Source: Thauera sp. K11
Lineage (GTDB): Bacteria; Pseudomonadota; Gammaproteobacteria; Burkholderiales; Rhodocyclaceae
Direction: 5' to 3'
Assembly: GCF_002354895.1 (NCBI RefSeq)
Contig: NZ_CP023439.1
Coordinates: forward strand, 4,278,001 to 4,342,000
Length of the DNA stretch: 64,000 nucleotides
The notes under the pieces are model-generated. The model saw nothing but the letters and a program-made list of their open reading frames with translations. It was not told the origin of the DNA and ran no database searches. Positions 42,825 to 58,390 of the stretch are shown here, one piece after another (within the stretch, counting starts at the first letter, position 1; each line of letters opens with the position of its first letter). The position numbers and the translations under genes are program-made.

Positions 42825-44051
42825 TCAGTGCCGGGTATCGATCGTCAGCTTCAGGCCCGACGCATCGGGCGCCACTCCGCTCAGCCGGCCTTCGAGATCG
42901 CCCGCCGCGGCCGTCACGTTGCCGCTCTTCGAGACCCGCGCCGCCACCGCGACGCGCACGGGGACGGAGGCATCGCCGGTCATCAGCGGCACGCCGTCGA
43001 AGCTGAAATCGCGCGGCAGTTCGTTGCCGCGAAAGCGCAGCGCGGCGAGCGGCGGGCCGCCGCCCTCGCCGCGCACGAAGACGAACACCGTGTCGTCCGG
43101 CGCCAGCTCGTCGCGCAGCGCCGCATCGATGTCGACGCGGCCGGACAGCGTCAGCGCGGACGACGGGTGGGCTGAAGGGGCTGCGGCAGCGGGTGCTTCC
43201 GCCAGCGGCGGCAGGCCGGCCTTTTCCCGCGCGTCGTCGATGCTCGCGCGCACGCCGCGCGCCAGATCGTCGCCCGGCGGGATGCGCGCCAGGATCTTCT
43301 CCCAGTGCGCAGCGGCGGCAGCGAAATCCTTGCGCTGGTAGGCGGCGGTGCCGGCCAGCGCCAGCGCCTTGGGGTGCTCCGGCGCGAGATCCAGCGCCTT
43401 CTGCGCAAGCGCCTCGGCTTCGCCCGCCACCGAGCCCATCCGGGCGGCGACCACGTCGGCCCAGTCGGCATAGACGTCCGGCTCGCCCGGCGCCAGCTTC
43501 GCCACCCGCTCGTAGGTCCGGGCCGCCTTGTCGTAGTCCTGCAGCACCGCGTAGGAACGCGCCAGCATCAGCCAGCCCTCGACGTTGTCCGGCTCCTGTT
43601 CCAGCCGGGCGGCGAGCTTGCCCACCATGTCGGCGATCTCGGCCTGGCTGAAGCCCTGGCGTCCCGCGACCTTCGCGGGATCGAGCCCGTCCGGGTTGCC
43701 GAGCGCCACATAGGCGACGGCGGCCATGGCCGGCACGCCCAGCGCCAGCGCCAGCGCCCAGCGCTTCGCCGGTTTCGCTTCGGCGGCGGCGACCGATGCG
43801 GCGGAGGCTTCGCCTTCTTCCAGCGCCCGGCGTTCGAGTTCGTCGCGCGCCTGGGCGTGCGTCGCGGCATCGAGACGGCCGGCGGCGAGGTCGGCATCCA
43901 GTTCGGCGAGCTGTTCGCGCAGCACCTTCAGTGCGATGGCCGCCTGTTCGGGCTCCGCCTCGTCGCGGCCGCGGGCGCGCAGCAGGGGCGGCAGAACCAA
44001 TAGCAGGGCGCCGGCCACGAGCAGGCCGGCGAGAACGATGAAGGTGATCAC
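42825..44051 (-). CDS. ccmI: Cytochrome c maturation protein CcmI (CycH)
   Basis: A 408-residue protein. Two N-terminal helices (ITFIVLAGLLVAGALLLVL and WALALALGVPAMAAVAYVAL) flank a cytosolic loop. They are followed by a periplasmic TPR region (for example PDNVEGWLMLARSYAVLQDY, PDVYADWADVVA, PEHPKALALAGTAAYQRKDF) and a C-terminal domain. It presents apocytochrome c to the CcmFH haem lyase. GTG 44051 overlaps the ccmH stop (GTGA). Last gene of the ccm operon. Confidence 0.87.
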   Translation of the reverse strand: MITFIVLAGLLVAGALLLVLPPLLRARGRDEAEPEQAAIALKVLREQLAELDADLAAGRLDAATHAQARDELERRALEEGEASAASVAAAEAKPAKRWALALALGVPAMAAVAYVALGNPDGLDPAKVAGRQGFSQAEIADMVGKLAARLEQEPDNVEGWLMLARSYAVLQDYDKAARTYERVAKLAPGEPDVYADWADVVAARMGSVAGEAEALAQKALDLAPEHPKALALAGTAAYQRKDFAAAAAHWEKILARIPPGDDLARGVRASIDDAREKAGLPPLAEAPAAAAPSAHPSSALTLSGRVDIDAALRDELAPDDTVFVFVRGEGGGPPLAALRFRGNELPRDFSFDGVPLMTGDASVPVRVAVAARVSKSGNVTAAAGDLEGRLSGVAPDASGLKLTIDTRH

Positions 44052-44599
44052 GAACGGGACTCCCGGGTTTCGGAGGACGGCGGCGCGTCGGCATCGGTGC
44101 CGGCCAGCAGCGCGCGCGCGCGGGCGTGCTCGGCCTCGCTCAGCGCGGCCACCGAGGCGGATTCGGCCGCGCGCCGGCGCACCCGGTACGCCAGCCAGCC
44201 GATCCCCGCCAGCAGCAGCACCGCCGGGCCGCCCCACAGCAGCAGCGTGATGCCCTTCACCGGCGGCTCATAGAGGACGAAATCGCCGTAGCGCGCGACC
44301 AGATAGTCGATGACGTCTTCCTTGCTGCGGCCGGCGGCGAGTTGCTCGCGCACCTGGTTGCGCAGGTCGAGCGCCAGCGGCGCGTTGGACTCGGCGATCG
44401 ACTGGTTCTGGCACACCAGGCAGCGCAGCTTGTGCGCGAGTTCCTGCACGTCGGCCTCGAGCCGGGGGTCGGCCGCGACCGTCGGCGCGACGTCGCCCGC
44501 CGGTGCCTCCCCGGCCGCGGCGGGTGACAGCCACAGGGCGGCGGAGAAGGCGGCGGCACAGGCCGCCGCGCGCGGAAACCGGATGCGATCAGCCCGCAC
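44048..44599 (-). CDS. ccmH: Cytochrome c maturation thiol protein CcmH
   Basis: A 183-residue protein with a signal peptide (to about residue 29) and the diagnostic LRCLVCQNQSIAES motif. A C-terminal membrane helix (ITLLLWGGPAVLLLAGIGWLA) and a short cytosolic tail follow. The Cys pair reduces or holds the apocytochrome CxxCH. It overlaps ccmG by 11 bp and ccmI by 4 bp. Confidence 0.93.
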   Translation of the reverse strand: MRADRIRFPRAAACAAAFSAALWLSPAAAGEAPAGDVAPTVAADPRLEADVQELAHKLRCLVCQNQSIAESNAPLALDLRNQVREQLAAGRSKEDVIDYLVARYGDFVLYEPPVKGITLLLWGGPAVLLLAGIGWLAYRVRRRAAESASVAALSEAEHARARALLAGTDADAPPSSETRESRS

Positions 44600-45182
44600 G
44601 GCGGATCTCCTCGACCTTGGGCAGGATCACCTGCTGCAGGTTTTCCGGCGTGATCGGCCCGATGTGCTTGTAGCGGATCTTGCCGTTGCCATCGATCAGG
44701 AAGGTTTCCGGGACGCCATACACGCCGAAGTCGATGCCCACGCGGCCGTCGATGTCGAGCACTGACAGCATGTAGGGATTGCCGTGGTCGCCCAGCCAGC
44801 GGCGCGCGCGCTCCACGGCGAGGGTGGTCTCGGCCTCCGGCGCCATGCCGCGCACGTCGAGCTGGCCGTCGCCGCGCACTTCCTTGTAGTTGAGGCCGAC
44901 GACGGGCACCACGTCCCTGCGCGCCAGGTCGACCAGCACCGGATGCTCCTGCCGGCACGCCACGCACCACGAGGCCCACACGTTCAGCAGCCACACCTTG
45001 CCGCGCATGTCGGCAAGCGCGAACTGCTGCGCGGGATCATCCACCCGCGCCAGCGTGAAGGCGGGCGCAGGCTTGTCGATCAGCGGCGACGGCACCTCCC
45101 GCGGGTTCAGCGTGAGGCCGAAGGCGAGAAAACCCACGAGGCCGAGGAACAGGAACAGCGGAACGAGGAACTTTGCTTTCAT
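44589..45182 (-). CDS. ccmG: Cytochrome c maturation thioredoxin CcmG (DsbE)
   Basis: A 197-residue membrane-anchored thioredoxin. An anchor at residues 5-24 is followed by the domain with active site WASWCVACRQEHP, where the CVAC variant differs from the usual CxxC of DsbE (CPTC). GVPETFLIDGNG is the cis-Pro region. It keeps apocytochrome c thiols reduced in the periplasm, supplied with electrons by DsbD or CcdA, which are not encoded here. Confidence 0.92.
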   Translation of the reverse strand: MKAKFLVPLFLFLGLVGFLAFGLTLNPREVPSPLIDKPAPAFTLARVDDPAQQFALADMRGKVWLLNVWASWCVACRQEHPVLVDLARRDVVPVVGLNYKEVRGDGQLDVRGMAPEAETTLAVERARRWLGDHGNPYMLSVLDIDGRVGIDFGVYGVPETFLIDGNGKIRYKHIGPITPENLQQVILPKVEEIRRAG

Positions 45183-45214
45183 GAAAAGACTCTGGCGGAC
45201 GGCCCGGGCACCGC

Positions 45215-47188
45215 TCAGGCCGCCTGCCGCGCGGCGCCGGCCGGCGCGCTGCGCTCGGCCAGCCGGCGGTAGCGGCGGTCGGCCGCGGCGAAGATGCCGC
45301 CCAGCGCCATCAGGGCGCAGCCCAGCCAGATCCAGCTGATGAAGGGTTTGAAATACAGGCTGACGATCCAGCTACCGTCAGGCAGTTGCTCGCCCAGCGA
45401 TACATACACGTCGCGGAACGGCCCAATGTCGATCGAAGCTTCGGTCATCGGCATGCCCTGCGCGCGGTAGAGGCGCTTTTCCGGCCGCAGCGTGGCGATG
45501 GCGACGCCGTCGCGGCTCACCTCCAGCGTGGCGCGCGCGGCGTCGTAGTTGGGTCCGGCGGCATCCTGCACGCCGCGGAACACGAAGCCGTAGCCGGCGA
45601 GTTCGGCGCGCTGGCCGTCGCGCATCTTCACGTCCAGGCTCTGGTTCAGGCTGCCGACCAGGGTCACGCCGATGATGAAGATGCCCACTCCCAGGTGCGC
45701 CAGCCACATGCCCCACCACGCCGACGGAATGCCGCGCAGGCGCGCCGCGGACGAGGCGCCGGCACGCTCGCCCAGCCGCGCGGCGAGCTGCTGCACGCTG
45801 GCGAGCACCACCCAGGCCGCGAGCGCGAGGCCGAGCACGGTGCGCGGCGTGGCATGGCCGATGGCGAACGCGGTGCCGACGCCGATCGCCACGCTGGCGG
45901 CGAAGGCCGGCGCCACGCGGCGCAGCACGGGGCCAAGCGTGTCGCCCTTCCAGCGCAGGAAGGGGCCGAACATCATCAGCACCACCACCGGCGTCATCAG
46001 CGGCACGAACACCGCCTCGAAGTAAGGCGGGCCGACCGAGATCTTGCCCATGCCCAGGGCGTCGAGGAACAGCGGATACAGCGTACCCAGCAGCACCGAG
46101 GCGGAAGCCACAGACAGCAGCACGTTGTTGCCCAGCAGCGCGGTCTCGCGCGACACGAAGGCGAAGCCGCCGCCGCCCGCCAGCCTGGGTGCGCGCCAGG
46201 CGTACAGCAGCAGCGACACGCCGATCACGACGACGAGCAGGAACAGGATGAAGAGGCCGCGCTTGGGGTCGGTGGCGAAGGCATGCACGCTGGTGATGAC
46301 GCCCGAGCGCACGAGGAAGGTGCCGAGCAGCGACAGCGAGAAGGCGCCGATCGCCAGCAGCACCGTCCAGCTACGGAAGGCACCGCGCTTCTCGGTGACG
46401 GCGAGCGAATGGATCAGCGCGGTGCCGAGCAGCCAGGGCATGAAGGAGGCGTTCTCCACCGGGTCCCAGAACCACCAGCCACCCCAGCCCAGCTCGTAGT
46501 AGGCCCAGCCCGAGCCGACCGCGATGCCGGCGGTCAGGAACACCCAGGCCACCGTGGTCCATGGCCGCGACCAGCGCGCCCACGCCGCATCCATGCGTCC
46601 CGACAGCAGCGCGGCGATGGCGAAGGCGAAGGCGACCGAGAAGCCGACGTAGCCCATGTAGAGCAGCGGCGGGTGGATGATCATGCCCGGGTCCTGCAGC
46701 AGCGGATTGAGGTCGCGCCCTTCCGGCGCGCCCGGCAGCAGGCGTTCGAAGGGGTTGGAGGTGACCAGCAGGAAGGCGAGGAAGCCGACGCTGACCCAGC
46801 CCAGCACGCCGAGCACGCGGGCGAGGAAGACGTCGGGCAGATGGCGCGAGAACACCGTGACCGCCACCGTCCACAACGCCAGCACCAGCGCCCACAGCAG
46901 CAGCGAGCCCTCGTGGCTGCCCCACACGCCGGTGATGCGGTAGTAGAGCGGCGTGGCGGTGTTGGAGTGCAGGGCGACGTATTCGACCGAGAAGTCGCTG
47001 GTGACGAAGGCCCAGGTCAGACAGGCGAACGAGAAGGCGACGAAGAAGAACTGCCCCTGCGCCGCCGGCCGCCCGACCGCCATCAGCGTGAGCCGGTTGC
47101 GGCTGGCGCCGACCATGGGCACCACCGCCTGCACCAGGGCGAGCACGAGGGCGAGGACGAGAGAGAAATGGCCGAGTTCGGGAATCAT
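45215..47188 (-). CDS. ccmF: Cytochrome c haem lyase subunit CcmF
   Basis: A 657-residue polytopic protein of usual CcmF length. The tryptophan-rich haem-handling motif is [19 protein letters not shown]. Conserved histidines flank it ([25 protein letters not shown]). Many hydrophobic helices and a large periplasmic C-terminal loop are present. It receives haem from CcmE and joins it to apocytochrome with CcmH/I. It overlaps ccmE by 4 bp. Confidence 0.95.
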
Positions 47189-47631
47189 TGCGCCACCGTC
47201 GCGCCGGCCTTGTGCGCCTGCTCCACTGCGTGGGCGGCCTCCGGCGGCATGTAGTTTTCGTCGTGCTTGGCGAGCACCTCGGTGGCGCGGAAGGTGCCGT
47301 CGGCTTCCAGCCGGCCCTGCACCACCGCGCCCTTGCCCTCCTTGAAGAGGTCGGGCAGCGTGCCCCTGTAGGACACCGGGATGGTCTTGGCGGTATCCGT
47401 GACGGCGAAGCGCACGGTGATGCCGTCGGCCTCGCGCCGGATGGAGCCCGTCTCCACCAGCCCGCCGATGCGGAAGGTCTTGCCCGAGGGCGCCTTGCCG
47501 GCGACGACCTCGGTCGGCGTATGGAAGAACACCAGGTTCTGCTGGAATGCGTTCAGCACCAGCGCCACCGCGGCCACCAGCAGGGCGACGCCGCCGCCCA
47601 CCAGCACCAGACGTTTGCTACGGGGTTTCAT
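47185..47631 (-). CDS. ccmE: Periplasmic haem chaperone CcmE
   Basis: A 148-residue protein with an N-terminal anchor (residues 8-28) and an OB-fold. The covalent haem-binding His 123 is in [11 protein letters not shown], with Tyr 127 as a haem-iron ligand. ATG 47631 lies inside the end of ccmD (14-bp overlap). Length and motif are standard. Confidence 0.94.
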
Positions 47632-47863
47632 TCGCTTGCGACTCCATGCCGGTGCGCGCCGGCCCATTGCCAATCCCACTGCCGCCGCCGTTCCTGCCCA
47701 CCGCCTTGCGCCAGCGCAGCAGCCGGTTCACGGTGTCTTTCCGACGCTGGAACACGAACACGAGTTCCAGCGCGACGAGGACGAAGGTGAGGCCATAGCT
47801 GCCCCACACGAAGAATGCCGCGCCGCCCATGTTCCAGAACGCGGACCAGCTTTCCCACTGCAT
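47618..47863 (-). CDS. ccmD: Haem exporter accessory protein CcmD
   Basis: An 81-residue protein with one helix ([20 protein letters not shown]) followed by a basic stretch ([17 protein letters not shown]), the CcmD pattern. It helps release holo-CcmE from CcmABC. It is slightly longer than typical because of a Gly-rich tail that overlaps ccmE. The start overlaps the ccmC stop by one base. Confidence 0.85.
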
Positions 47864-48627
47864 CAGGCCCGCCCTCCCTCGCGCGTCAGTACGGCGCCGA
47901 CCCACTCGGTGTGGCGTTCGCGCTCCAGGATCATCGGCCGTACCCGCCACAGCGTCACCGCCAGCGTATAGGCCCACGCCGCGAAGGCCATCGCCAGCAT
48001 GCCGAGGAGCATGGTCGCGGCCATCGACGGTGCCTTGGTCAGGCTCACCGAGGCGCCCTGGTGCAGCGTGTTCCACCACTGCACCGAGAAATAGATCACC
48101 GGCACGTTGACCACGCCGACCAGCGCGACGATGGCGCCGGCGCGGTCGGCGCGGCGCGGGTCCTCGATCGCGCGCGTGAGCGCGATGAAGCCGAGGTAGA
48201 GGAACAGCAGCAGCGCCTGCGAGGTCAGCCGCGCATCCCACACCCAGTAGGTGCCCCAGGTCGGCTTGCCCCACAGCGCCCCGGTCCACAGCGCGACCAC
48301 GCAGAACATGGCGCCGGTGGGCGCCAGCGCCTGGCTCATCATGAAGGACAGCCGGGTGTTCATGACCAGCCCCACCGCCGACCAGAAGGCCATCACCAGA
48401 TAGACGAACATCGACATCCAGGCCGCCGGCACGTGGATGAAGATCACGCGATACACCTCGCCCTGGGTGGCATCGGTGGGCGCGACGAAAAAGCCCAGCC
48501 ACAGGCCGGCGACGGCCAGCACCGCGGCGGCGGCGGCGAACCACGGGGCGAGGCGCCCCGCCAGGGGATAGAAGTTCTGCGGAGCGGCGAAGCGCAGGAA
48601 GCTGGGGCCGCGGTCGGGTCTGCTCAT
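47863..48627 (-). CDS. ccmC: Haem exporter membrane protein CcmC
   Basis: A 254-residue six-helix protein with the tryptophan-rich motif WGTYWVWDARLTSQ and conserved histidines in VIFIHVPAAWMS and WWNTLHQGAS. It binds haem for attachment to CcmE. It starts 24 bp after ccmB ends. Confidence 0.94.
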   Translation of the reverse strand: MSRPDRGPSFLRFAAPQNFYPLAGRLAPWFAAAAAVLAVAGLWLGFFVAPTDATQGEVYRVIFIHVPAAWMSMFVYLVMAFWSAVGLVMNTRLSFMMSQALAPTGAMFCVVALWTGALWGKPTWGTYWVWDARLTSQALLLFLYLGFIALTRAIEDPRRADRAGAIVALVGVVNVPVIYFSVQWWNTLHQGASVSLTKAPSMAATMLLGMLAMAFAAWAYTLAVTLWRVRPMILERERHTEWVGAVLTREGGRA

Positions 48628-48651
48628 CGGGGTCGGTTCAGTTGCACAACG

Positions 48652-49320
48652 TCATTCGGTCGATATCCGCAGCGCCGCCGCACAGGCCCACGGCGCCAGC
48701 GCCAGCGCGCCGGCCAGGCCGCCGCCCAGCAGCAGCAGGTGCGCGGCGGCGCCGCTGCCGGACAGTTCCGCCTCCACCGCGCCCGCGCCGAAGATCAGCA
48801 CCGGCACGAACAGCGGCAGCACCAGCAGTGCGAGCAGCATGCCGCCGCCGCGCAGGCCCAGCGTCAGCGCCGCACCCACCGCGCCGAGCAGCGCGAGGAT
48901 GGGGGTACCGAGCGCCAAACTTACTACCAGCACCGGGTAGGCGCCTTGTTCGAGGTCAAACAGCAGCGCGAGCACCGGCGCCACCGCCACCAGCGGCAGG
49001 CCGGTGCTGAGCCAGAAGGCGAGCACCTTGCCCGTCACCCACAGCACGGCCGGTTCGCTGGACAGCAGCAGTTGCTCCAGGGTTCCATCGGCGTGGTCCT
49101 GCGCGAACAGGCGATGCAGCGACAGCAGGCAGGCCAGCAGCGCGGCGACCCACACCACGCCGGGGGCGATCGAACGCAGCAGGTTGGTCTCGGCGCCGAC
49201 GCCGAACGGGAACAGGCACACGACGATGACGAAGAAGGCCAGCGTCACCAGCACGTCGGCGCGGCCGCGCCAGGCCAGCAGCAGGTCGCGCCGCAGCACG
49301 GCGAGGAAGGTGCTCAGCAT
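48652..49320 (-). CDS. ccmB: Haem exporter membrane protein CcmB
   Basis: A 222-residue ABC permease with six hydrophobic helices. MLSTFLAVLRRDLLLAWR and FAQDHADGTLEQLLLS are typical CcmB blocks. It pairs with CcmA to free holo-CcmE. ATG 49320 overlaps the ccmA end by 7 bp. Confidence 0.92.
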   Translation of the reverse strand: MLSTFLAVLRRDLLLAWRGRADVLVTLAFFVIVVCLFPFGVGAETNLLRSIAPGVVWVAALLACLLSLHRLFAQDHADGTLEQLLLSSEPAVLWVTGKVLAFWLSTGLPLVAVAPVLALLFDLEQGAYPVLVVSLALGTPILALLGAVGAALTLGLRGGGMLLALLVLPLFVPVLIFGAGAVEAELSGSGAAAHLLLLGGGLAGALALAPWACAAALRISTE

Positions 49321-49940
49321 GTGTAGGCCCCGACATCCAGCACCTCGGGGGCACGGGCGAAGGGCGCGTCCTGGTGGGTGGTCAGCATCACCATGCCACC
49401 GGCGGCGCAATGGTCGGACAGCGTCGTCGCCAGGTCGGCCACCGCCGCGGCATCGAGCGCGGTGAAGGGTTCGTCCAGCACCCACAGCGAGCGCCGCGCC
49501 GACAGGAACAGCCGCGCCAAGCCCACGCGCCGCCGCTGGCCCTGGGACAGCACGCGGGCGGGCAGGTCGAGTTGGTTCTCCAGCCCGATGCGGGCGAGCG
49601 CGGTGACGCAGTTCTCCTCGTCCACGTCGTCGCCGGCCGCGGCACAGGCGAAACGCAGGTTCTCGAGCGGCGTCAGCAGATCGTTCAGCGCCGCGGCGTG
49701 GCCGAGATAGAGCAGTTCGCGATGCAGCGCCTCGCGGTCGCGGCGGATGCCGACGCCGCGCCAGCGCACCTCGCCGGCCTCGGGCAGCGCCAGGCCGGTG
49801 ACGAGGCGCAGCAGGCTGGTCTTGCCCACGCCGTTGGGGCCTGCCACGCGCAACAGCCCGCCCGCCTTCAGGTGCAGGGCGAGGCCGCGGAACAGAAGGC
49901 GGTCGCCCTTCAGGCAGGCGAGATCGTGGGCTTCGAGCAT
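49314..49940 (-). CDS. ccmA: Haem exporter ATPase CcmA
   Basis: A 208-residue ABC ATPase. Walker A is GPNGVGKT, the signature region LSQGQRRR and Walker B LWVLDEPFTALD, the CcmA variants. It is the first gene of the ccm operon, transcribed through to ccmI. A TATAAT lies only 9 bases ahead of the ATG, with no ribosome site between. Confidence 0.93.
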   Translation of the reverse strand: MLEAHDLACLKGDRLLFRGLALHLKAGGLLRVAGPNGVGKTSLLRLVTGLALPEAGEVRWRGVGIRRDREALHRELLYLGHAAALNDLLTPLENLRFACAAAGDDVDEENCVTALARIGLENQLDLPARVLSQGQRRRVGLARLFLSARRSLWVLDEPFTALDAAAVADLATTLSDHCAAGGMVMLTTHQDAPFARAPEVLDVGAYTC

Positions 49941-49949
49941 AAGGCGGCG

Positions 49950-49955
49950 ATTATA
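49950..49955 (-). promoter_or_regulatory. Possible -10 box very close to the ccmA start
   Basis: A perfect TATAAT on the minus strand ends 9 bases before ATG 49940. A start of transcription 6-7 bases downstream would give an mRNA with almost no leader. No good -35 hexamer was seen. Confidence 0.4.
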
Positions 49956-49995
49956 GCCCGGAGCCCTCCCATCTTCGTCGCGCGGCCGGGCCGGA

Positions 49996-52029
49996 TCATG
50001 CCTGCCCGCCATCGAACGGATGGAGGCCGGGCATGAAGGCGGAGACCTCGGCGAGCGAGCGCCGCACGCCCGCAGGCGACAGGCCGGCATACCGTGCCAG
50101 CGCGTCGGCCGGCAGCGGGCCGACGATGCGGTCCAGGTCGCCGAAACGCAGTCCCTGGCGGACCAGGTGGGCGATGCAGGTGTGGCGCAGCGTGTCCGGC
50201 GTGATGCCCGCGGGGTCGTCCAGCCCGGCGTCGTGCGCGGCGCACAGCAGGCGCCGCTGCAGTTCCTCGTCGGTTCCCGGCGCCAGCGCGGCCCCGCCCC
50301 CGTCCGGACCGGGAGCCGCCGCCAGCCTGCGGCACAGGCCCGGCGGCACGGGGAGTTCGCGGGCGGATGCGCCGGCAAGCCGGACGCGGGCCGCGGCGGC
50401 GTCCACGTCGGCCGGGGCGAGGCCGCGTATCTCGCCAGGCGTGGCGCCGCACAGCAGCAGACCCGCCCACACGGAATCCTGCGCGGACAGGGTACGCAGC
50501 AGGGCCGCGACCTCTTCCTGCGACAGTTCCCGCATCGACTCCGCCGGCGAGGCCAGCAGGTTCGCGCCGGCCGCGGGCCCGCGCAGCGGCCGCGCGGCCG
50601 GGCCGGCGGCGAGCGCGGGCGGGAGGTCCTGGCCGACGGCGATCCACGGCTGCGGCACGATGACCGGCGTCGCCGGCGGCCGCGGCGGACGGTTGAACAG
50701 CTCGGTCACCCCCATCGCAAGCAGGGCGAGGCCGAGGGCGGCCGCGACGCTGATCGCCGCGTCCCGGGCGTAGTCCGGCCGCCATGCGCTGACCGGCGCG
50801 GTCGCGGCCTCGATCACCTGCACCGAGGGCATGCGCGAACGCTCGCTCGCCTCGGTGCGCAGCAGGCGCTCGGACACCGCGCTGCGGCTGGTCTCGAGCT
50901 GCGCCAGTTCTTCCTGCATGGACTTGAAGGTGCCGAAGCTGCGCGAAAAGGCGTGCACCGCCCCGCGGTCGCGGGTGATCTGGGCCTGCAGGGTCTGCTG
51001 TTCCTCACGCGCGGTGGCGAGTTCTTCCTCGGCCTCGGCCAGCGAAACCTGCCCGGCGGTGGACTTCGTCTCGGCGATCTGCGCCTCGAGTTCGGCCAGC
51101 CGCGAGCGCAGGCTGTGCGCCTCCGGGTCCATGTCCATGAACTGCGGGGTATGCGTGCGCTCCATGTCGCGCAGCGATTCCCGCAACTGCGACGCGCGCG
51201 ACTCCAGCCCGGCGAGGGTGGGGTTGTCGCGCGCCCGCACCACCGGCCTGCCGGCGGCGAGGGATTCGCGCAGCGACCGCACCCGCCCCTCGGCCTTGGC
51301 GACCTTCTCGTTGGCCTGGTTCAGCGACAGGGACAAGCCTTTCACACGGGCGAGGACCTGGTTCTCGTCGCGCTCGCCGGAAACGATGTCCGCCGCCTGG
51401 CGGAAATCCTCCAGCGCCTTGCGCTTTTCTTCGAGGCGGCGGTTCAGGTCCTGAAGCTCCTGGCGCAGCGCATCGATCTCGCCGCCGGCCGCGCTCGAAT
51501 AGGAGTCGAGCAAGCGGCGGGAATAGGCATCGATCAGTGCATTGACGAGCGCCGCGAGATGTTCGGGCTGCCCGCCCGTCGCCGCCACGCCGATGATGTT
51601 GCTGTCCGCGACCGGTGCCGCGCTCAGGGCCGCCTGCACGCCCTGCACCGGATCGGGGCCGAACTCGTCGAGAGCCACGCCTTGCCCGCGCAGCGCGGCG
51701 AGCGCGGCCTCGATCACCGGGCGGCTGGACAGCACGCCGGCCTCGGCCTGCAGGCTGCCGGCAGCGGACGCGGCGGTGGACACCGTCGCCCCTTCGGCCG
51801 CCGACGTCTGCAAGTCGGTGACGACGCCCGCCGGCTTCACCGCGATCCGCGCCTGCGCCCGGTACTCGGGCGGACGCAGGAAGGTGTAGGCCAGGCCGGC
51901 GAGCAGGGCCGGCACCAGCACCAGCAAGAAGGCACGCAGGCGCCGCCGGTTGCCGCGCGCCGCGATCTCCTCCGCGCGCGCGGTGTCGATGTCCGCGGCG
52001 GAATGGGTCAGGGTCCTGAACTCTGGCAT
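49996..52029 (-). CDS. GumC/Wzz-like chain-length protein with a degenerate tyrosine-recombinase-like C-terminus
   Basis: A 677-residue protein. Helix 31-50 is followed by a Wzz-like region (VKPAGVVTDLQ, SRPVIEAALAAL, NIIGVAATGGQPEHLAALVNA), a long coiled coil (about 183-395), then a second helix (423-445), as in GumC/Wzc-type co-polymerases. Instead of a tyrosine-kinase domain, the cytosolic tail (about 500-677) resembles a tyrosine-recombinase catalytic domain: a GLLLCGATPGEIRGL block like box I and ITPDTLRHTCIAHLVRQGL like box II, with a candidate Tyr 647. The box I Arg and the third-box His appear lost. It lies 63 bp after napC on the same strand. Confidence 0.78.
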   Translation of the reverse strand: MPEFRTLTHSAADIDTARAEEIAARGNRRRLRAFLLVLVPALLAGLAYTFLRPPEYRAQARIAVKPAGVVTDLQTSAAEGATVSTAASAAGSLQAEAGVLSSRPVIEAALAALRGQGVALDEFGPDPVQGVQAALSAAPVADSNIIGVAATGGQPEHLAALVNALIDAYSRRLLDSYSSAAGGEIDALRQELQDLNRRLEEKRKALEDFRQAADIVSGERDENQVLARVKGLSLSLNQANEKVAKAEGRVRSLRESLAAGRPVVRARDNPTLAGLESRASQLRESLRDMERTHTPQFMDMDPEAHSLRSRLAELEAQIAETKSTAGQVSLAEAEEELATAREEQQTLQAQITRDRGAVHAFSRSFGTFKSMQEELAQLETSRSAVSERLLRTEASERSRMPSVQVIEAATAPVSAWRPDYARDAAISVAAALGLALLAMGVTELFNRPPRPPATPVIVPQPWIAVGQDLPPALAAGPAARPLRGPAAGANLLASPAESMRELSQEEVAALLRTLSAQDSVWAGLLLCGATPGEIRGLAPADVDAAAARVRLAGASARELPVPPGLCRRLAAAPGPDGGGAALAPGTDEELQRRLLCAAHDAGLDDPAGITPDTLRHTCIAHLVRQGLRFGDLDRIVGPLPADALARYAGLSPAGVRRSLAEVSAFMPGLHPFDGGQA

Positions 52030-52091
52030 GGAGCGGCTCCTCGACGTGTCCCAGGGCGTCCGCTCCTTGCGCGCAAGGGCGTGCCGGCGGC

Positions 52092-52715
52092 CTATTGTGC
52101 CGCGGGCGGCGTCGGGTGCATCACTTCCGGCGGCACGCCGCCGCGGTCGGCACCGATGTCCTGCGCCACCGGCGGCAACTGGTGGGCGATGCCCTTGTGG
52201 CAGTCGATGCAGGTTTTGCCTTCGCTCAGCCCGGCCTGGTGCATCTGGTTGGAGCGGCGGCCCTGCACCGAGTAGTCGAAATACTCGTAGTTGTGGCAGT
52301 TGCGGCACTCCTGCGAGTTGTTCGCCTTCATCCGCCGCCATTCGTTCTGCGCCAGGCGCAGGCGCTCGGCGTGGAACTTCTCGGGCGTGTTGATGCTGCC
52401 CACGATCTTGCCATAGACCTCCTTGGAAGCCTGGATCTTGCGGATGATCTTGGGCACCCATTCCTTGGGCACGTGGCAGTCCGGACAGGTGGCGCGCACG
52501 CCGGTGCGGTTCTGGTAGTGGATCGTGTTGCGGTATTCCCTGAACACGTTCTCCTCCATCTCGTGGCAGGAGATGCAGAACTTCTCCCTGTTCGTCATTT
52601 CCAGCGCCCAGTTGAAACCGCCCCAGAAGACGATGCCCGCGGCAAACAGGATGGCGATGGCGCTCCAGCCCGCCCCGCGGATCCTCTGCACCAGGGTCTT
52701 GTTGTTGTCGCTCAT
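52092..52715 (-). CDS. napC: Tetrahaem quinol dehydrogenase NapC
   Basis: A 207-residue NapC/NirT-family protein. One N-terminal anchor ([20 protein letters not shown]) is followed by four haem sites CISCH, CPDCH, CRNCH and CIDCH. It takes electrons from the quinol pool to NapAB. The extra tail after the fourth haem ends in HPTPPAAQ. Confidence 0.95.
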
Positions 52716-52738
52716 GGTCTATCCCCGTCGTGTCGAGC

Positions 52739-53188
52739 CTAGCGCAGGCCATCCGCGCGCTGGAACTGGTTGCCCACCAGCGGCCTGGCGTCCGTCTGCG
52801 GCACGTGGCACTGCATGCAGAAGTAGCGCCGCGGCGAGATGTTCGACAGTTCGCCGCCATCGCGGTCCTTGAAGTGGGTCAGGCTCACCTTGGTCGCGCC
52901 GCTCTCCTTGTAGCGGCTCCACGCGTGGCAATCCATGCACTTGTTGAAGTTCATGGTGACCTCGTAGCCCTCGACCTTGTGCGGGATCAGCGGCGGCTGC
53001 TGCACGTAGTCGCGCTGCATCGGCGCCTGGTCGGGAAGGGTCTTGAAGCCGCCGGGGGACGCCTCCGGCGCCGCCACGTCGGCGCCGCGTATGCTCTTGA
53101 CGGCCTGGGCGCTCGCGGACGGCGGCAGCGCGGCAAGGCCGAGCGCAGCCACGAATGCAAGCACGCGTTTACGGATTGGTCTGTTCAT
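52739..53188 (-). CDS. napB: Dihaem cytochrome c subunit NapB of periplasmic nitrate reductase
   Basis: A 149-residue protein with a signal peptide ending at SASA-QA (about residue 27) and two haem sites, CMDCH (84-88) and CMQCH (124-128). It passes electrons from NapC to NapA. ATG 53188 overlaps the napH stop (ATGA). Confidence 0.95.
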   Translation of the reverse strand: MNRPIRKRVLAFVAALGLAALPPSASAQAVKSIRGADVAAPEASPGGFKTLPDQAPMQRDYVQQPPLIPHKVEGYEVTMNFNKCMDCHAWSRYKESGATKVSLTHFKDRDGGELSNISPRRYFCMQCHVPQTDARPLVGNQFQRADGLR

Positions 53189-54120
53189 GACTCGCTCCTG
53201 TTGAATCGGGTCGTAATGCGGAAAACGCTCCTGCCGCAGACGTCGACGCAGCGGCCGCAGGCGGTGCAGTCGCCGTCCAGGATCAGCGGATGGCCCTGGC
53301 CCACGCCCTTCAGCGCCGGACGGATGACCTGGGGTTCGGGGCACACGGCGAAGCAGTCCATGCAGTCGTTGCAGGCCGAGCGGCGGGCGGCGGACACGCG
53401 CAGCACGGCGGCGCGCCCGAGCAGGCCGTAGAAGGCGCCCTGCGGGCACAGGTGGCCGCACCATCCGCGCGGAGCGATGAGCAGGTCGTACAGGAAGATG
53501 CCGCCGACGATGCCCCATGCCAGGCCGAAGCCGAAGATCAGCGCGCGATGGAACATCGACACCGGATTCACCCATTCCCACGCCAGCGAGCCGGTGGCCG
53601 CCGCCGCCAGCAGGACGAAGCCGAGCAGCCAGTAGCGCGTGCCGCCCGCGGGCGCCTTGCCGCCCTTGAGCCCGAGGCGCCGCCGCAGCCAGGCCGCGGC
53701 ATCGGTGACGAGGTTCATCGGGCACACCCAGGAACAGAACAGCCGGCCGCCGAACAGCAGGTAGAACGCCAGCACGATGCCGCCGCCGAGCAGCGCCTCG
53801 CGGTAGGGCCAGTGGCCGGCTGCGAGCTGCTGCGCGACGAGGAAGGGGTCGGTGAGCGGCAGCACGTCCAGCGTCAGGCTGGACGCCAGGCTGCCCTTCA
53901 CGATCCACGCGCCGAGCCACGGACCGGCGAGGAAGACCGCGAGGATGCCGATCTGGGACAGGCGCCGCAGCAGCAGCCACTTGTGCGCCCGCAGCCAGCC
54001 CTTGGCCGCGACCGCCTCGCGCCCCGGACGTGCCACCACGCCACGCTGCGCCGCCCCGCGCACGCTGGTGGGCGGCGGCGGCTTGCGGCCGGCCGCGCCG
54101 GCGGAATCCTGCGTGCTCAT
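53185..54120 (-). CDS. napH: Membrane ferredoxin-type protein NapH
   Basis: A 311-residue protein with four or more membrane helices, two cytosolic CxxxCP motifs (FCSWVCP and WCGHLCP) and two C-terminal 4Fe-4S motifs (CNDCMDCFAVCP and CTACGRCVDVC). It forms a quinol dehydrogenase with NapG. ATG 54120 lies in the second half of a 14-bp tandem duplication spanning the napG/napH junction; a GTG three codons upstream is the alternative. Confidence 0.92.
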   Translation of the reverse strand: MSTQDSAGAAGRKPPPPTSVRGAAQRGVVARPGREAVAAKGWLRAHKWLLLRRLSQIGILAVFLAGPWLGAWIVKGSLASSLTLDVLPLTDPFLVAQQLAAGHWPYREALLGGGIVLAFYLLFGGRLFCSWVCPMNLVTDAAAWLRRRLGLKGGKAPAGGTRYWLLGFVLLAAAATGSLAWEWVNPVSMFHRALIFGFGLAWGIVGGIFLYDLLIAPRGWCGHLCPQGAFYGLLGRAAVLRVSAARRSACNDCMDCFAVCPEPQVIRPALKGVGQGHPLILDGDCTACGRCVDVCGRSVFRITTRFNRSES

Positions 54121-54144
54121 GGCTTCCACCTCATGGCTTCCACC
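54117..54144. repeat. Perfect 14-bp tandem duplication at the napG/napH junction
   Basis: TCATGGCTTCCACC occurs twice in a row (54117-54130 and 54131-54144). Removing one copy would give the ATGA stop/start overlap seen at the other nap junctions. The duplication leaves both reading frames intact and puts a decoy ATG between them. Confidence 0.9.
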
Positions 54145-55027
54145 CCGAATCGAGGCCGCCCGGCTTCGGGAACGGCTTGTAGTCGGGCACCGCCTGTTCG
54201 TCGCCGGCGGGCCCCTCGCCCGGGCCGACGCGGGTGTCGCCGTGGGCCTTGCCTTCCAGTCCGCGCACCGGCAGCTCGACCTGTTCGCCGATCAGCGATT
54301 CGCCGGCGGCCTTCTTCTCTTCCCAGCCGCGCAGGTAATGCTCGGCCTTGGAGCCCTGGGCGAGCCGTACCGGCAGCACCTTGATCGCCGCTTCGCCCGG
54401 CAGCACGCAGGACTTCTCGCACTTGCCGCAGCCGGTGCAGTGCTCGGAATGCACCGTCGGCAGCAGCATCGCGTGGCGGTCGGAACGCGGATTGTGGATG
54501 CGTTCGAGGGTGATCGCCTTGTCGATCACCGGGCACACCCGGTAGCAGACGTCGCAGCGTAGGCCGAGGAAGTTGAGGCAGTTTTCCTGGTCGATCAGCA
54601 CGGCGAGGCCCATCTTCGCCTTGCCGATGTCCTTCAGCCCGCGGTCGAGCGCACCGGTGGGACAGGCGGCGACGCAGGGAATGTCGTCGCACATCTCGCA
54701 CGGAATCTTGCGCGCCTCGAAGTAGGGCGTGCCGGTGGCGACGCCGTCACCTAGTCTGGCAAGTTGCAGCGTGTCGTAGGGGCAGCCGCGCACGCACAGG
54801 CCGCAGCGCACGCAGGCGGCGAGAAAAGCGGCCTCCGCCAGCGCGCCCGGCGGCCGGATGGCCGTCGCCGGCAGGGCCGAAGCCTGACGGGCGTACAGGC
54901 CGGCGCCGAGCGCCAGCAGCCCCGCGCCGCCCGCGACGCCGGCCGCATCCTTGAGGAAGCGGCGGCGCGAGGACGGCACGGCGCCCGACTGGCCGCCGGC
55001 CTGGCCGCGTTTGTCCTGGTCGCTCAT
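54131..55027 (-). CDS. napG: Periplasmic ferredoxin-type protein NapG
   Basis: A 298-residue protein with a Tat signal (SSRRRFLK then a hydrophobic stretch) and four 4Fe-4S motifs, including [43 protein letters not shown] and [11 protein letters not shown]. It relays electrons with NapH to NapC/NapAB. Its last codons overlap the 14-bp duplication. Confidence 0.93.
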
Positions 55028-55069
55028 GATCCGTACTCATCCGCCCCCGGCCGCATGCCCTTTCCCGCC

Positions 55070-57616
55070 TCAGGCTTTGACCACCTTCACCGCGCACTTC
55101 TTGTAGTCGGTTTCCTTGGAGATCGGGCAGGTGGCGTCCAGCGTGAGCTTGTTCACCAGCCGTCCCTCGTCGAAGAAGGGCACGAAGATCAGCCCGACCG
55201 GCGGCTTGTTGCGGCCGCGCGTCTCCAGCCGCGCGACGATCTCGCCGCGACGCGAGGCGACTTTCACCGCCATGCCGCGCTGCAGGCCGCGCCTGGTGGC
55301 GTCGTCCGGGTGCATGAAGACCTGCGCCTCGGGCACCGCCTTGTGCAGTTCGGGCACGCGGCGGGTCATCGAGCCGGTATGCCAGTGCTCCAGCACGCGG
55401 CCGGTGCACAGCCACATGTCGTACTCGGTGTCGGGCTTCTCGGGCGGGTCCTGGTAGGGCAGCGCGAAGATCACCGCCTTGTTGTCCTTGTGGCCGTAGA
55501 ACTTCACGCCCTCGCCGGACTTCACGTACGGGTCGTAGCCCTCGCGGAAGCGCCACAGCGTCTCCTTGCCTTCGACCACCGGCCAGCGCAGGCCGCGCGT
55601 CTTGTGGTAGAGGTCGAAGTCGGCGAGATCGTGGCCGTGGCCGCGGCCGAACATGGCGTATTCCTCGAAGAGGCCCTTCTGCAGGTAGAAGCCGAGCACC
55701 TTCGATTCGTCGTTCATGTAGCCCTTGATGGCGTGGCCGTTGGCCTTCTCGACGTCGGCGAGCGGGAACTTGTTCACCTGGCCGTTGGCGTACAGCACGT
55801 CGAACAGCGTCTTGCCCTTGTATTCCGGCTTCTTGGCGATCAGCTCGGCCGGCCACACCTCCTCGACCTTGAAGCGCTTGGAGAACTCCATGTACTGCCA
55901 CAGGTCGGACCTCGCCTCGCCCGGCGCCGGTACCTGCTGGCGCCAGAACTGGGTGCGGCGCTCGGCATTGCCGAAGGCGCCTTCCTTCTCGGCCCACATC
56001 GCGCTCGGCAGGATCAGGTCGGCCGACAGCGCGGACACCGTCGGATACACGTCGGACACCACGACGAAGGCTTCCGGATTGCGCCAGCCCGGATAGATCT
56101 CGCCATTGACGTTGGGCCCCGCCTGCATGTTGTTGGTGGTGGTGGTCCAGTAGCACTTGATCTTGCCGTCCTTCAGCGCCCGGCTCTGGGCCACCGCGTG
56201 CAGGCCGATCTTGGCCGGGATGGTGCCCTCGGGCAGCTTCCAGATCTCTTCCGTATGGGCGCGATGCACCGGATTGGTGACGACCATGTCCGCCGGCAGG
56301 CGGTGGGCGAAGGTGCCGACTTCGCGCGCCGTGCCGCAGGCCGAGGGCTGGCCGGTGAGCGAGAACGGGCTGTTGCCCGGCTCGCTGATCTTGCCCACCA
56401 GCAGATGGACGTTGTAGATCATGTTGTTCACCCAGGTGCCGCGGGTGTGCTGGTTGAAGCCCATGGTCCAGAACGACACCACCTTGCGCTTGGGGTCGGC
56501 ATAGACCTCGGCGAGGCGCTTGAGCCTGTCCACCGGCACGCCGGACAGCCTGGAGACATGCTCGGCCGTGTAGGTGGACACGAACCTGGCGAACTCGTCG
56601 AAGCCGATGTCCCTGGCCGCGCCGGTGTCGCCCTTGGGCTTGCCCTCGGCGTCCGGGTAGCCGTTGCTCGCGGCCTTGGCCTCGAGCGGATGGTTCGGAC
56701 GCAGGCCGAAGCCGATGTCCGTCTCGCCCACCTTGAACTTGACGTTGCGATTGACGAAGGCGGTGTTCACCCGCTTGGTCTGGATGATGTGGTTGCAGAT
56801 GTAGTTGAGGATCGCCAGGTCGGTCTGCGGCACGAAGATCATCGGGTTGTCGGCCAGTTCGTACGAACGGTGCTCGAAGGTCGACAGCACATGCACTTCG
56901 GTGCCGTCCTTGGACAGGCGGCGGTCGGTGATGCGGCTCCACAGGATGGGGTGCATCTCGGCCATGTTGGAACCCCACAGCACGAAGGTGTCGGTGTTCT
57001 CGATATCGTCGTAGCAGCCCATCGGCTCGTCGATGCCGAAGGTACGCATGAAGCCCGCCACCGCGGAGGCCATGCAGTGGCGCGCGTTGGGGTCGATGTT
57101 GTTGGTGCGGAAACCCGCCTTGTAGAGCTTGGAGGCGGCGTAGCCTTCCCAGATCGTCCATTGGCCGGAGCCGAACATCGCGATCGAATCCGGCCCGTTG
57201 GCCTTCATCGCGGCCTTCCACTTCTCGGCCATGATGTCGAACGCCTGGTTCCAGGTGATGGGCGTGAACTCGCCGTTCTTGTCGTACTTGCCGTTCTTCA
57301 TGCGCAGCAGCGGCTTGGTGAGCCGGTCCTCGCCGTACATGATCTTGGACAGGAAGTAGCCCTTGATGCAGTTCAGGCCGCGATTGACGGGCGAATCCGG
57401 GTCGCCCTGCGTCGCCACCACGCGGCCGTTCTGCACGCCGACCAGCACCGAACAGCCGGTGCCGCAGAAGCGGCAGGCCGCCTTGTCCCAGCGGATCCGG
57501 GTCCCGTCCGGGCTCCTGGTCTGCGCTTCCGCGACCACCGGGATGCCGATGCCGGCGCTGGCCGCCGCGGCCGCAATCGCGTTGGTCTTGATGAATTCGC
57601 GTCGATCCATGGTCAT
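55070..57616 (-). CDS. napA: Periplasmic nitrate reductase catalytic subunit NapA
   Basis: An 848-residue molybdoenzyme. The Tat signal begins [10 protein letters not shown]; mature NapA opens with the 4Fe-4S motif [13 protein letters not shown] and a fourth Cys in GLNCIKGYF. The Mo-ligand Cys is in [17 protein letters not shown], followed by [15 protein letters not shown]. Length is normal. It reduces nitrate to nitrite in the periplasm. One base separates it from napD. Confidence 0.97.
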
Positions 57617-57617
57617 T

Positions 57618-57872
57618 TCATGCCTCCAGATGTTCGAGACCTTCGTCGGTGTATTCGTAGGCGAGCGTCACGCCGTGGACTTTCGGCGCCATGTTCACTG
57701 CCAGGATGGAATCGGCGACCGACCAGCCCTCGCCGTCTTCGACGGTGACGACGATCCTGCCGGTCTCGGCCGACGCACCGTGCATCTCGACGCCCGGGAT
57801 GCCGCGCAGGCTTGCCTGCACTTCGGGGAAATCGGCGGGCATCGCCCGCACGACCAGACTTGCGACCTTCAT
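57618..57872 (-). CDS. napD: NapD, NapA signal-peptide-binding chaperone
   Basis: An 84-residue ferredoxin-like fold protein: [20 protein letters not shown], then [19 protein letters not shown]. It binds the Tat signal of NapA during cofactor insertion. ATG 57872 overlaps the napF stop (ATGA). Confidence 0.92.
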
Positions 57873-58390
57873 TGCTTGACCTCCGTGGGGGCGTTCATCG
57901 CATCTGCATCCATGGACCGCAGCTCGATCGCCCGCACCGGACAGGGCCCGGAGCAGGCGCCGCAGCCGTTGCAGGCATCGGTCTCGAGCACGGGCAGCGC
58001 CACCCCGCCCAGGCGCGGGCGAAAGCGGATGGCGGCGGCCGGACAGGCTTCGCCGCAGACCCGGCACTCGACGCCCTGCGCCGCCAGGCAGGCTTGGCCG
58101 ATGCGCACGCGCAGCGTCCAGGGGGGATCCTCGGCCTGCTCGCGGTACAGCGCGCGGGGTTCGCAGCGGCTGACGCACTCGCCGCAGAAGGTGCATTCAC
58201 CGCCGGCGAAGTCGACGGCGGGATAGCCGCCGTCGGCGCGCACCAGGATCTGCGTCGGACAGTGGTCGATGCAGGCAGCGCAGCGCGTGCAGTGGGCGAC
58301 GAAATCGGCCTCGTCCCGCGCCCACGGCGGACGCTGGGCGGTGGCGGCAGCGGCATTCACGCGTCCGCGCAGAAAACCACGGCGCGACAT
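57869..58390 (-). CDS. napF: NapF ferredoxin-type accessory protein
   Basis: A 173-residue cytosolic protein with 4Fe-4S motifs CTRCAACIDHCP, CTFCGECVSRCE, CRVCGEACP and CNGCGACSGPCP. MSRRGFLRGR at ATG 58390 matches NapF starts; a longer frame to 58462 would run through the FNR box. First gene of the nap operon, 72 bp after that box. Confidence 0.92.
   Translation of the reverse strand: MSRRGFLRGRVNAAAATAQRPPWARDEADFVAHCTRCAACIDHCPTQILVRADGGYPAVDFAGGECTFCGECVSRCEPRALYREQAEDPPWTLRVRIGQACLAAQGVECRVCGEACPAAAIRFRPRLGGVALPVLETDACNGCGACSGPCPVRAIELRSMDADAMNAPTEVKQ

Follow-up and report, generated by a model that had tools for sequence, protein, structure and literature searches.

In tyrosine recombinases, a core-binding domain and a CAT domain together clamp DNA, the CAT domains join in cyclic assemblies, and the first arginine of the active site (RI) is a main phosphate ligand. 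Ndc10 of yeast has a non-catalytic tyrosine-recombinase fold and binds DNA. The phage repressors MrpR (YopR) and SroF are further cases in which this fold is put to non-catalytic use, and the paper on MrpR (PMC10516654) describes a recombinase that has lost catalysis and is kept for another job, DNA binding, with three of seven catalytic positions retained (Glu, Lys and Tyr; its Table 3). Among polysaccharide co-polymerases (PCPs), Wzc is of type PCP-2a and carries a tyrosine kinase of the BY-kinase type; according to PMC8285477, the Wzc octamer falls apart when its Tyr-rich tail is autophosphorylated, and a cycle of octamer and monomer has been proposed as a way of regulating polymerization and translocation. 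Here we describe a gene that joins a PCP to a domain with the predicted fold of a recombinase CAT domain. It lies on the minus strand of a 64,000-nucleotide stretch of the Thauera sp. K11 genome (NZ_CP023439.1, positions 4,278,001 to 4,342,000; hereafter the window), and its open reading frame (ORF) of 677 codons has no internal stops and occupies exactly the coordinates that a preliminary description of this DNA had given without naming the strand (Table 1).

When searched as a single sequence, the C-terminal tail resembled tyrosine recombinases weakly, with an integron integrase at E 0.0077 and XerA at E 0.019, neither of which came near its cut-off. PF00589 was absent among the Pfam matches of the single fusion sequence up to E 1, and the fusion protein was not among the 26 matches in a PF00589 search of its own genome. 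A profile built from a full-length alignment of 60 of the 120 homologues listed matched, among PDB sequences, an archaeal XerC-like recombinase (4a8e, E 1.6e-11 over residues 495-666), XerA (5.6e-11) and XerD (3.6e-7). A profile of the tail alone (59 rows, the window protein and 58 of 78 distinct relative tails) matched XerA at 9.9e-17, 4a8e at 7.6e-16, IntI4 at 7.5e-15 and XerD at 2.1e-13. Because family-alignment profiles reach 1.6e-11 to 9.9e-17, the recombinase match is far beyond chance. In the predicted model the tail folds confidently, tyrosine recombinases head its fold comparison and it has the CAT-domain fold of PF00589; this is the outcome that the preliminary description had expected of a fold check, and the recombinase-box motifs and Tyr647 that it had quoted are found where it placed them. 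No core-binding domain was seen next to the CAT domain in the model, where residues 454-494 are a low-confidence part of the linker (Table 1) and the PCP part precedes them. The tail thus shares fold and sequence profile with the CAT domains of Xer/XerA and of the P2 and HP1 integrases but, unlike them, is acidic, stands on a membrane protein with no core-binding domain in view and has no catalytic set.

The N-terminal two-thirds is a PCP, as had been proposed: Pfam Wzz (PF02706) matches residues 29-111 above its curated cut-off (29.6 bits vs 25.5). The full-length family profile matched Wzc among PDB sequences at E 2e-13 (best stretch 132-243), and a Foldseek comparison of this part gave Wzc as the top matches (E 8e-10), with KpsE and WzzE also matched. 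Helices in the predicted model cover residues 10-51, the 155-398 region and 420-446, with the hairpin placed between two terminal helices, the arrangement of solved PCPs; by homology to Wzc, helices 10-51 and 420-446 are taken as holding the membrane helices. The best NCBIfam matches of this part are the EpsF/XrtA-type chain length determinants TIGR03017 (60.0 bits) and TIGR03007 (60.4 bits). The fusion protein stays far below their cut-offs (422.75 for the EpsF equivalog TIGR03017 and 278.85 for TIGR03007), and their models span 444 and 498 positions, which leaves no room for the tail. Wzc and the fusion protein thus share the PCP part, the hairpin between two terminal helices and the presence of a domain after the second helix, but they differ in what that domain is. 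The fusion protein lacks a Walker A motif (present in 1 of 211 family members) and has a single tyrosine after residue 494 (Tyr647), whereas the C-terminus of Wzc is tyrosine-rich, and at the position of the Wzc kinase it has a CAT pseudoenzyme behind a linker predicted to be disordered.

The fusion protein is therefore a PCP with a new cytosolic domain, a pairing already visible in automated annotation (PF00589 is in the precomputed annotation of 30 among the 120 homologues listed). No description of a PCP paired with a recombinase fold, or of a pseudo-recombinase in such wording, was found in the open-access literature, a scope outside which most subscription papers lie. Some members are automatically named 'tyrosine-type recombinase/integrase', which can mislead counts of mobile elements. 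The family is also a natural example of Wzc-like co-polymerases that do without a kinase, in which the role of the cytosolic domain in ring assembly and chain length can be addressed by domain swap.

We propose that the fusion protein is an accessory PCP that carries a domesticated CAT pseudoenzyme as a cytosolic protein module and acts in trans on a polysaccharide system, a reading to which we give a probability of about 0.5. The accessory co-polymerase would span the membrane with two helices and hold a helical hairpin in the periplasm, and a flexible linker after the second of these membrane helices would lead to the CAT domain, at the place of Wzc's tyrosine kinase. The pseudoenzyme retains the recombinase fold along with the glutamate of box I, the second arginine and, in most members, the tyrosine, and it has lost the first arginine, the hairpin lysine and the two histidines. 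The tail may either pack subunits into the PCP ring or dock a partner in the cytosol, and might in this way, without phosphorylation, govern how the co-polymerase is assembled or turned over, with a presumed effect on chain length; the target in trans would be a polysaccharide system of the Wzx/Wzy type whose genes lie at another place in the genome. The most economical proposal appears to be that the pseudo-CAT domain stands in for the kinase ring, providing contacts between subunits or with a partner. A bolder version, which we advance only tentatively and think rather improbable, is that the pseudoenzyme replaced the tyrosine kinase as a cytosolic switch, with subunit exchange in the style of recombinases assembling and releasing the ring and a tail that might read an acidic or nucleic-acid ligand. 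If true, such a ligand-reading tail would couple the assembly of sugar chains to the state of nucleotides or of the chromosome.

Catalytic residues were counted across 211 family sequences (202 distinct), of which 208 have a residue at the column of the second arginine; one of the 208 is the tail-less paralogue L002, aligned there by accident. At the R, K, H, R, H/W and Y positions the window protein has T530, no lysine after residue 494, D612, R615, P638 and Y647. The full set is thus absent, in agreement with the earlier claim that key recombinase residues were lost, and the loss extends through the family: RI is Arg in 6 of 208 sequences and the beta-hairpin position is Lys in 8, the HII column is His in none, the last histidine column is His or Trp in 2, and RI and HII occur together in none. 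With the catalytic set lost family-wide, known family rules exclude normal catalysis. Residue 533, the box I glutamate, is Asp or Glu in 204 of 208, and the second arginine and the tyrosine are also widely kept (Table 1). MrpR likewise keeps three positions, but its set differs from the Glu, second Arg and Tyr kept here. Leu replaces Tyr647 in one clade of Comamonadaceae/Sphaerotilaceae (Rhodoferax, Variovorax, Pseudorhodoferax, Paucibacter and Rubrivivax), and since the whole clade has Leu at this position the tyrosine is not needed as a nucleophile in it. Outside the catalytic set, near-invariant residues include R557, D600, H616 and Q625. A Nitrosomonadales/Nitrotoga-type member (L040) has an insertion in the beta-hairpin.

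The residues that remain bear on a different explanation, in which the remnant site (R615, Tyr647 and R557) binds a nucleotide, sugar nucleotide or second messenger and gates the co-polymerase. Charged residues have been selectively retained after catalysis was lost, which speaks for such a small-ligand sensor, but the RI phosphate ligand is gone and the retained residues are possibly structural; we regard the sensor as unlikely.

The net charge of the tail (residues 500-665) ranged from -7.7 to +0.6 per 100 residues and was below zero in 203 of 205 sequences, the count excluding 6 of 211 sequences with fewer than 130 residues in this segment. As controls, 17 distinct full-length PF00589 CAT domains from the same genome ranged from 0.0 to +7.9 per 100, 16 being positive and one (L111) zero, and of four distinct partial CAT segments without stops three were positive and one negative (-3.4). 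The control is a little weaker with the last nine PF00589 matches included than with the first 17 of 26 (15 distinct, all positive). Among these CAT segments, L096/L097 and L099/L100 are identical pairs and probably copies of mobile elements.

Acidity and the lack of a visible core-binding domain argue against DNA binding by the tail, on the evidence of sequence and predicted model. The preliminary description had left open a DNA- or protein-binding module; of the two, DNA binding has become the less likely, given also the loss of RI, the hairpin lysine and both histidines. The same features count against a membrane-bound one-component regulator, in which the PCP part would sense periplasmic polysaccharide assembly and the tail would bind DNA as MrpR and SroF do. 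MrpR has a core-binding domain, whereas none was seen in the model of the fusion protein, and the tyrosine is replaced in a whole clade; such a regulator is therefore improbable. From its sequence, the fusion tail seems to have given up the job that MrpR kept. The precedents considered here for a non-catalytic recombinase fold (MrpR/YopR and SroF) bind DNA, whereas in this family the fold belongs to a polysaccharide protein of the membrane and has features that speak against DNA binding.

The fusion is conserved among relatives, so that the survey of orthologues that the preliminary description had asked for also came out in its favour. Homologues numbered 139, and of the 120 listed all except P0045 cover at least 92% of the query. 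Among 88 family loci (L001 and L003-L089, some representing one genome twice, such as L003 and L011), the tail is present in 85; L068 and L072 end at contig ends, and L086 has no tail. One of the three search patterns lies in the tail, so tailed loci are somewhat favoured in this count. On its recurrence in 85 of 88 loci we reject the idea that the fusion is an artefact or a misassembly. A search with the tail of P0047, covering proteins of about 370 to about 1185 amino acids (aa), gave 301 matches; 85 of the 120 listed were new, and every one of these aligns to the family profile over a stretch that starts no later than residue 400 and ends no earlier than residue 630; in 73 the match begins at residue 60 or before, and the other 12 lack the N-terminal stretch. 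No case of the tail on another N-terminus was found among these 85. Carriers made up 9 of 61 relatives (own genome included) and 6 of the 369 genomes sampled from the class (again with the own genome, and at most three candidates scored per genome), and in all six the match covers the tail. Among the best 80 of 91 loci, those named include Thauera, Azoarcus, Aromatoleum, Zoogloea, Accumulibacter, Rhodoferax, Variovorax and Nitrotoga, and further Alteromonas, Colwellia, Rhodovibrionaceae and Desulfacinum.

Several length variants were seen. P0163 has an intact tail and lacks most of the helical hairpin, a natural length variant; Zoogloea sp. LCSB751 has a short tail-less paralogue downstream of the full gene (L030, 14043-15053); the member without any tail is from Halieaceae (L086, 8889-10400); and the longest ORFs at the Nitrosomonadales/Nitrotoga-type loci L040, L048, L049, L053 and L063 are 687-744 aa.

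We estimated selection on the tail (residues 495-670) with the Nei-Gojobori ratio of nonsynonymous to synonymous substitution rates (dN/dS). It was 0.24-0.44 in 15 pairs from the window's genus, 0.13-0.28 in 3 pairs of Accumulibacter/Propionivibrio/Azoarcus, 0.09-0.16 in 6 Zoogloea pairs and 0.03-0.07 in 6 Alteromonadaceae pairs. The tail is under purifying selection in all four clades tried, most strongly in Alteromonadaceae. Recent decay of the tail is ruled out by these ratios, and 'decayed', the word used in the preliminary description, does not fit a domain with a confident predicted fold, a fixed residue signature and purifying selection. Over 204 sequences, near-copies among them, the p-distances of the PCP part and of the tail show a correlation of 0.92. 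In a tree, a branch separates 59 tails from 15 recombinases of the Thauera genome (support 83/61; recovered in 86% of 200 bootstrap trees); the branch is not strongly supported, and its outgroup is narrow, being drawn from one genome. These sequence comparisons are most simply read as one fusion event, after which the two parts were inherited together.

These data also bear on the idea that a recombinase gene was fused by accident and that the tail is a passive remnant, a folded cap without a role of its own. A tail-less family member exists (L086), the tail dN/dS reaches its highest values in the window's genus, and the distribution within the class is patchy, all of which would suit such a remnant; retention of the tail in nearly all loci, purifying selection in each clade tried and the near-invariant residues outside the catalytic set make it doubtful. 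An active recombinase anchored in the membrane, for which the fold and Tyr647 could be cited, has a negligible chance, with catalytic residues missing family-wide, no core-binding domain seen and an acidic tail.

For the accessory-PCP reading, the fusion protein is likely to have a system on which it can act in trans, because the Thauera genome encodes a true EpsF elsewhere (L002, TIGR03017 596.5 bits) and each of the nine carriers among the 61 relatives has, besides a Wza-type Poly_export gene, one or more other TIGR03017-like PCP matches, most of them below the cut-off of that family. In raw counts, Poly_export was above cut-off in 9 of 9 carriers vs 35 of 52 non-carriers.

The neighbours of the fusion gene vary by lineage, and no conserved partner gene emerged, no cluster besides the fusion gene itself being present in more than 14 of 89 loci. 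Selected neighbours were named by profile in 20 of 88 loci. Clear polysaccharide-synthesis genes, a point in favour of the accessory-PCP reading, were present at three of these: Colwellia L085 (GT2, Glyphos_transf and Wzy_C), L061 (UDP-GlcNAc 2-epimerase) and Pseudorhodoferax L037 (UDP-glucose/GDP-mannose dehydrogenase). Suggestive ones were found at L028, L044 and L059 and comprise a heparinase-like gene with VanZ, a GATase/SIS protein, NTP_transf_5 and HprK-related kinase A. Other neighbours include DUF3025 and iPGM (Zoogloea), hypF and hypD (Desulfacinum), gyrB (Rhodovibrionaceae), uvrC and transporters. Members of cluster c1, present in 14 loci, are no more than a few genes away from the fusion gene in L008/L025, L019, L060/L066, L075 and L089, and the member in L025 is GGDEF by Pfam.

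Several points weigh against the accessory-PCP reading. At 14 of the 20 loci no polysaccharide gene was among the neighbours named by profile, so that a role in polysaccharide assembly has to be argued from the PCP homology. The tail evolves faster than the PCP part (dN/dS 0.09-0.30) in 13 of 15 pairs from the window's genus. The retained R615, R557, E533 and Tyr647 could form a surviving anion or nucleic-acid pocket, and the ring, the partner and the chain-length effect that the reading supposes for the fusion protein are putative.

Table 1. Features of the fusion gene and its flanks (window coordinates)
Feature	Coordinates	Strand	Remarks
PCP-pseudorecombinase fusion gene	49996..52029	-	ATG at 52029, stop at 49996; 677 aa + stop
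Polysaccharide co-polymerase part, residues 1-446	50692..52029	-	Wzz domain, long helical hairpin
Linker, residues 447-494	50548..50691	-	Predicted mostly disordered; predicted local distance difference test (pLDDT) <50 for 454-494
Tyrosine-recombinase-type CAT domain without catalytic set, residues 495-674	50008..50547	-	Profiles, predicted fold, residue census
Arg615 codon, second catalytic arginine	50185..50187	-	Kept in 197/208; alignment to XerA and XerD
Tyr647 codon, nucleophile position	50089..50091	-	Kept in 189/208
Likely ribosome-binding site GAGGAG	52037..52042	-	From sequence; 7 nt 5' of fusion-gene ATG
napC, upstream neighbour	52092..52715	-	Gap to fusion gene 62 bp; NapC/NirT family TIGR02161
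ccmA, downstream neighbour	49314..49940	-	Gap to fusion gene 55 bp; TIGR01189 E 7.8e-64, above cut-off

In the window, the ORF list and the profile matches of napC and ccmA bear out the placement of the fusion gene between these two genes; napC matches TIGR02161 at E 3e-87 with 291.3 bits, below the cut-off of 310.6. The further remark that no other polysaccharide gene is nearby stands for the ORF list read, from 44000 to 58000, in which three genes (napC, ccmA and the fusion gene) were named by profile. Among 21 of 29 genomes of the window's genus surveyed at nap-ccm, the fusion gene follows napC in six and ccmA directly follows napC in nine; three have a close napC and no ccmA in the stretch examined, and three (G011, G025 and G028) have distant NapC/NirT-type matches only. 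With napC and ccmA adjacent in nine genomes and separated by the fusion gene in six, the gene has either landed at nap-ccm or been lost from it repeatedly, and its place there says little about function. A nap or ccm function for the fusion gene is not supported, the site being lineage-specific. In a Motiliproteus metagenome-assembled genome (L070, 8597-11899), from a distant gammaproteobacterium, a relative with 28% identity lies 720 bp downstream of a napC-cluster gene, by chance or as a second nap association. In the gap between the fusion gene and ccmA, a TATAAT on the minus strand (49950-49955), 9 bases 5' of the ccmA start, is a candidate promoter.
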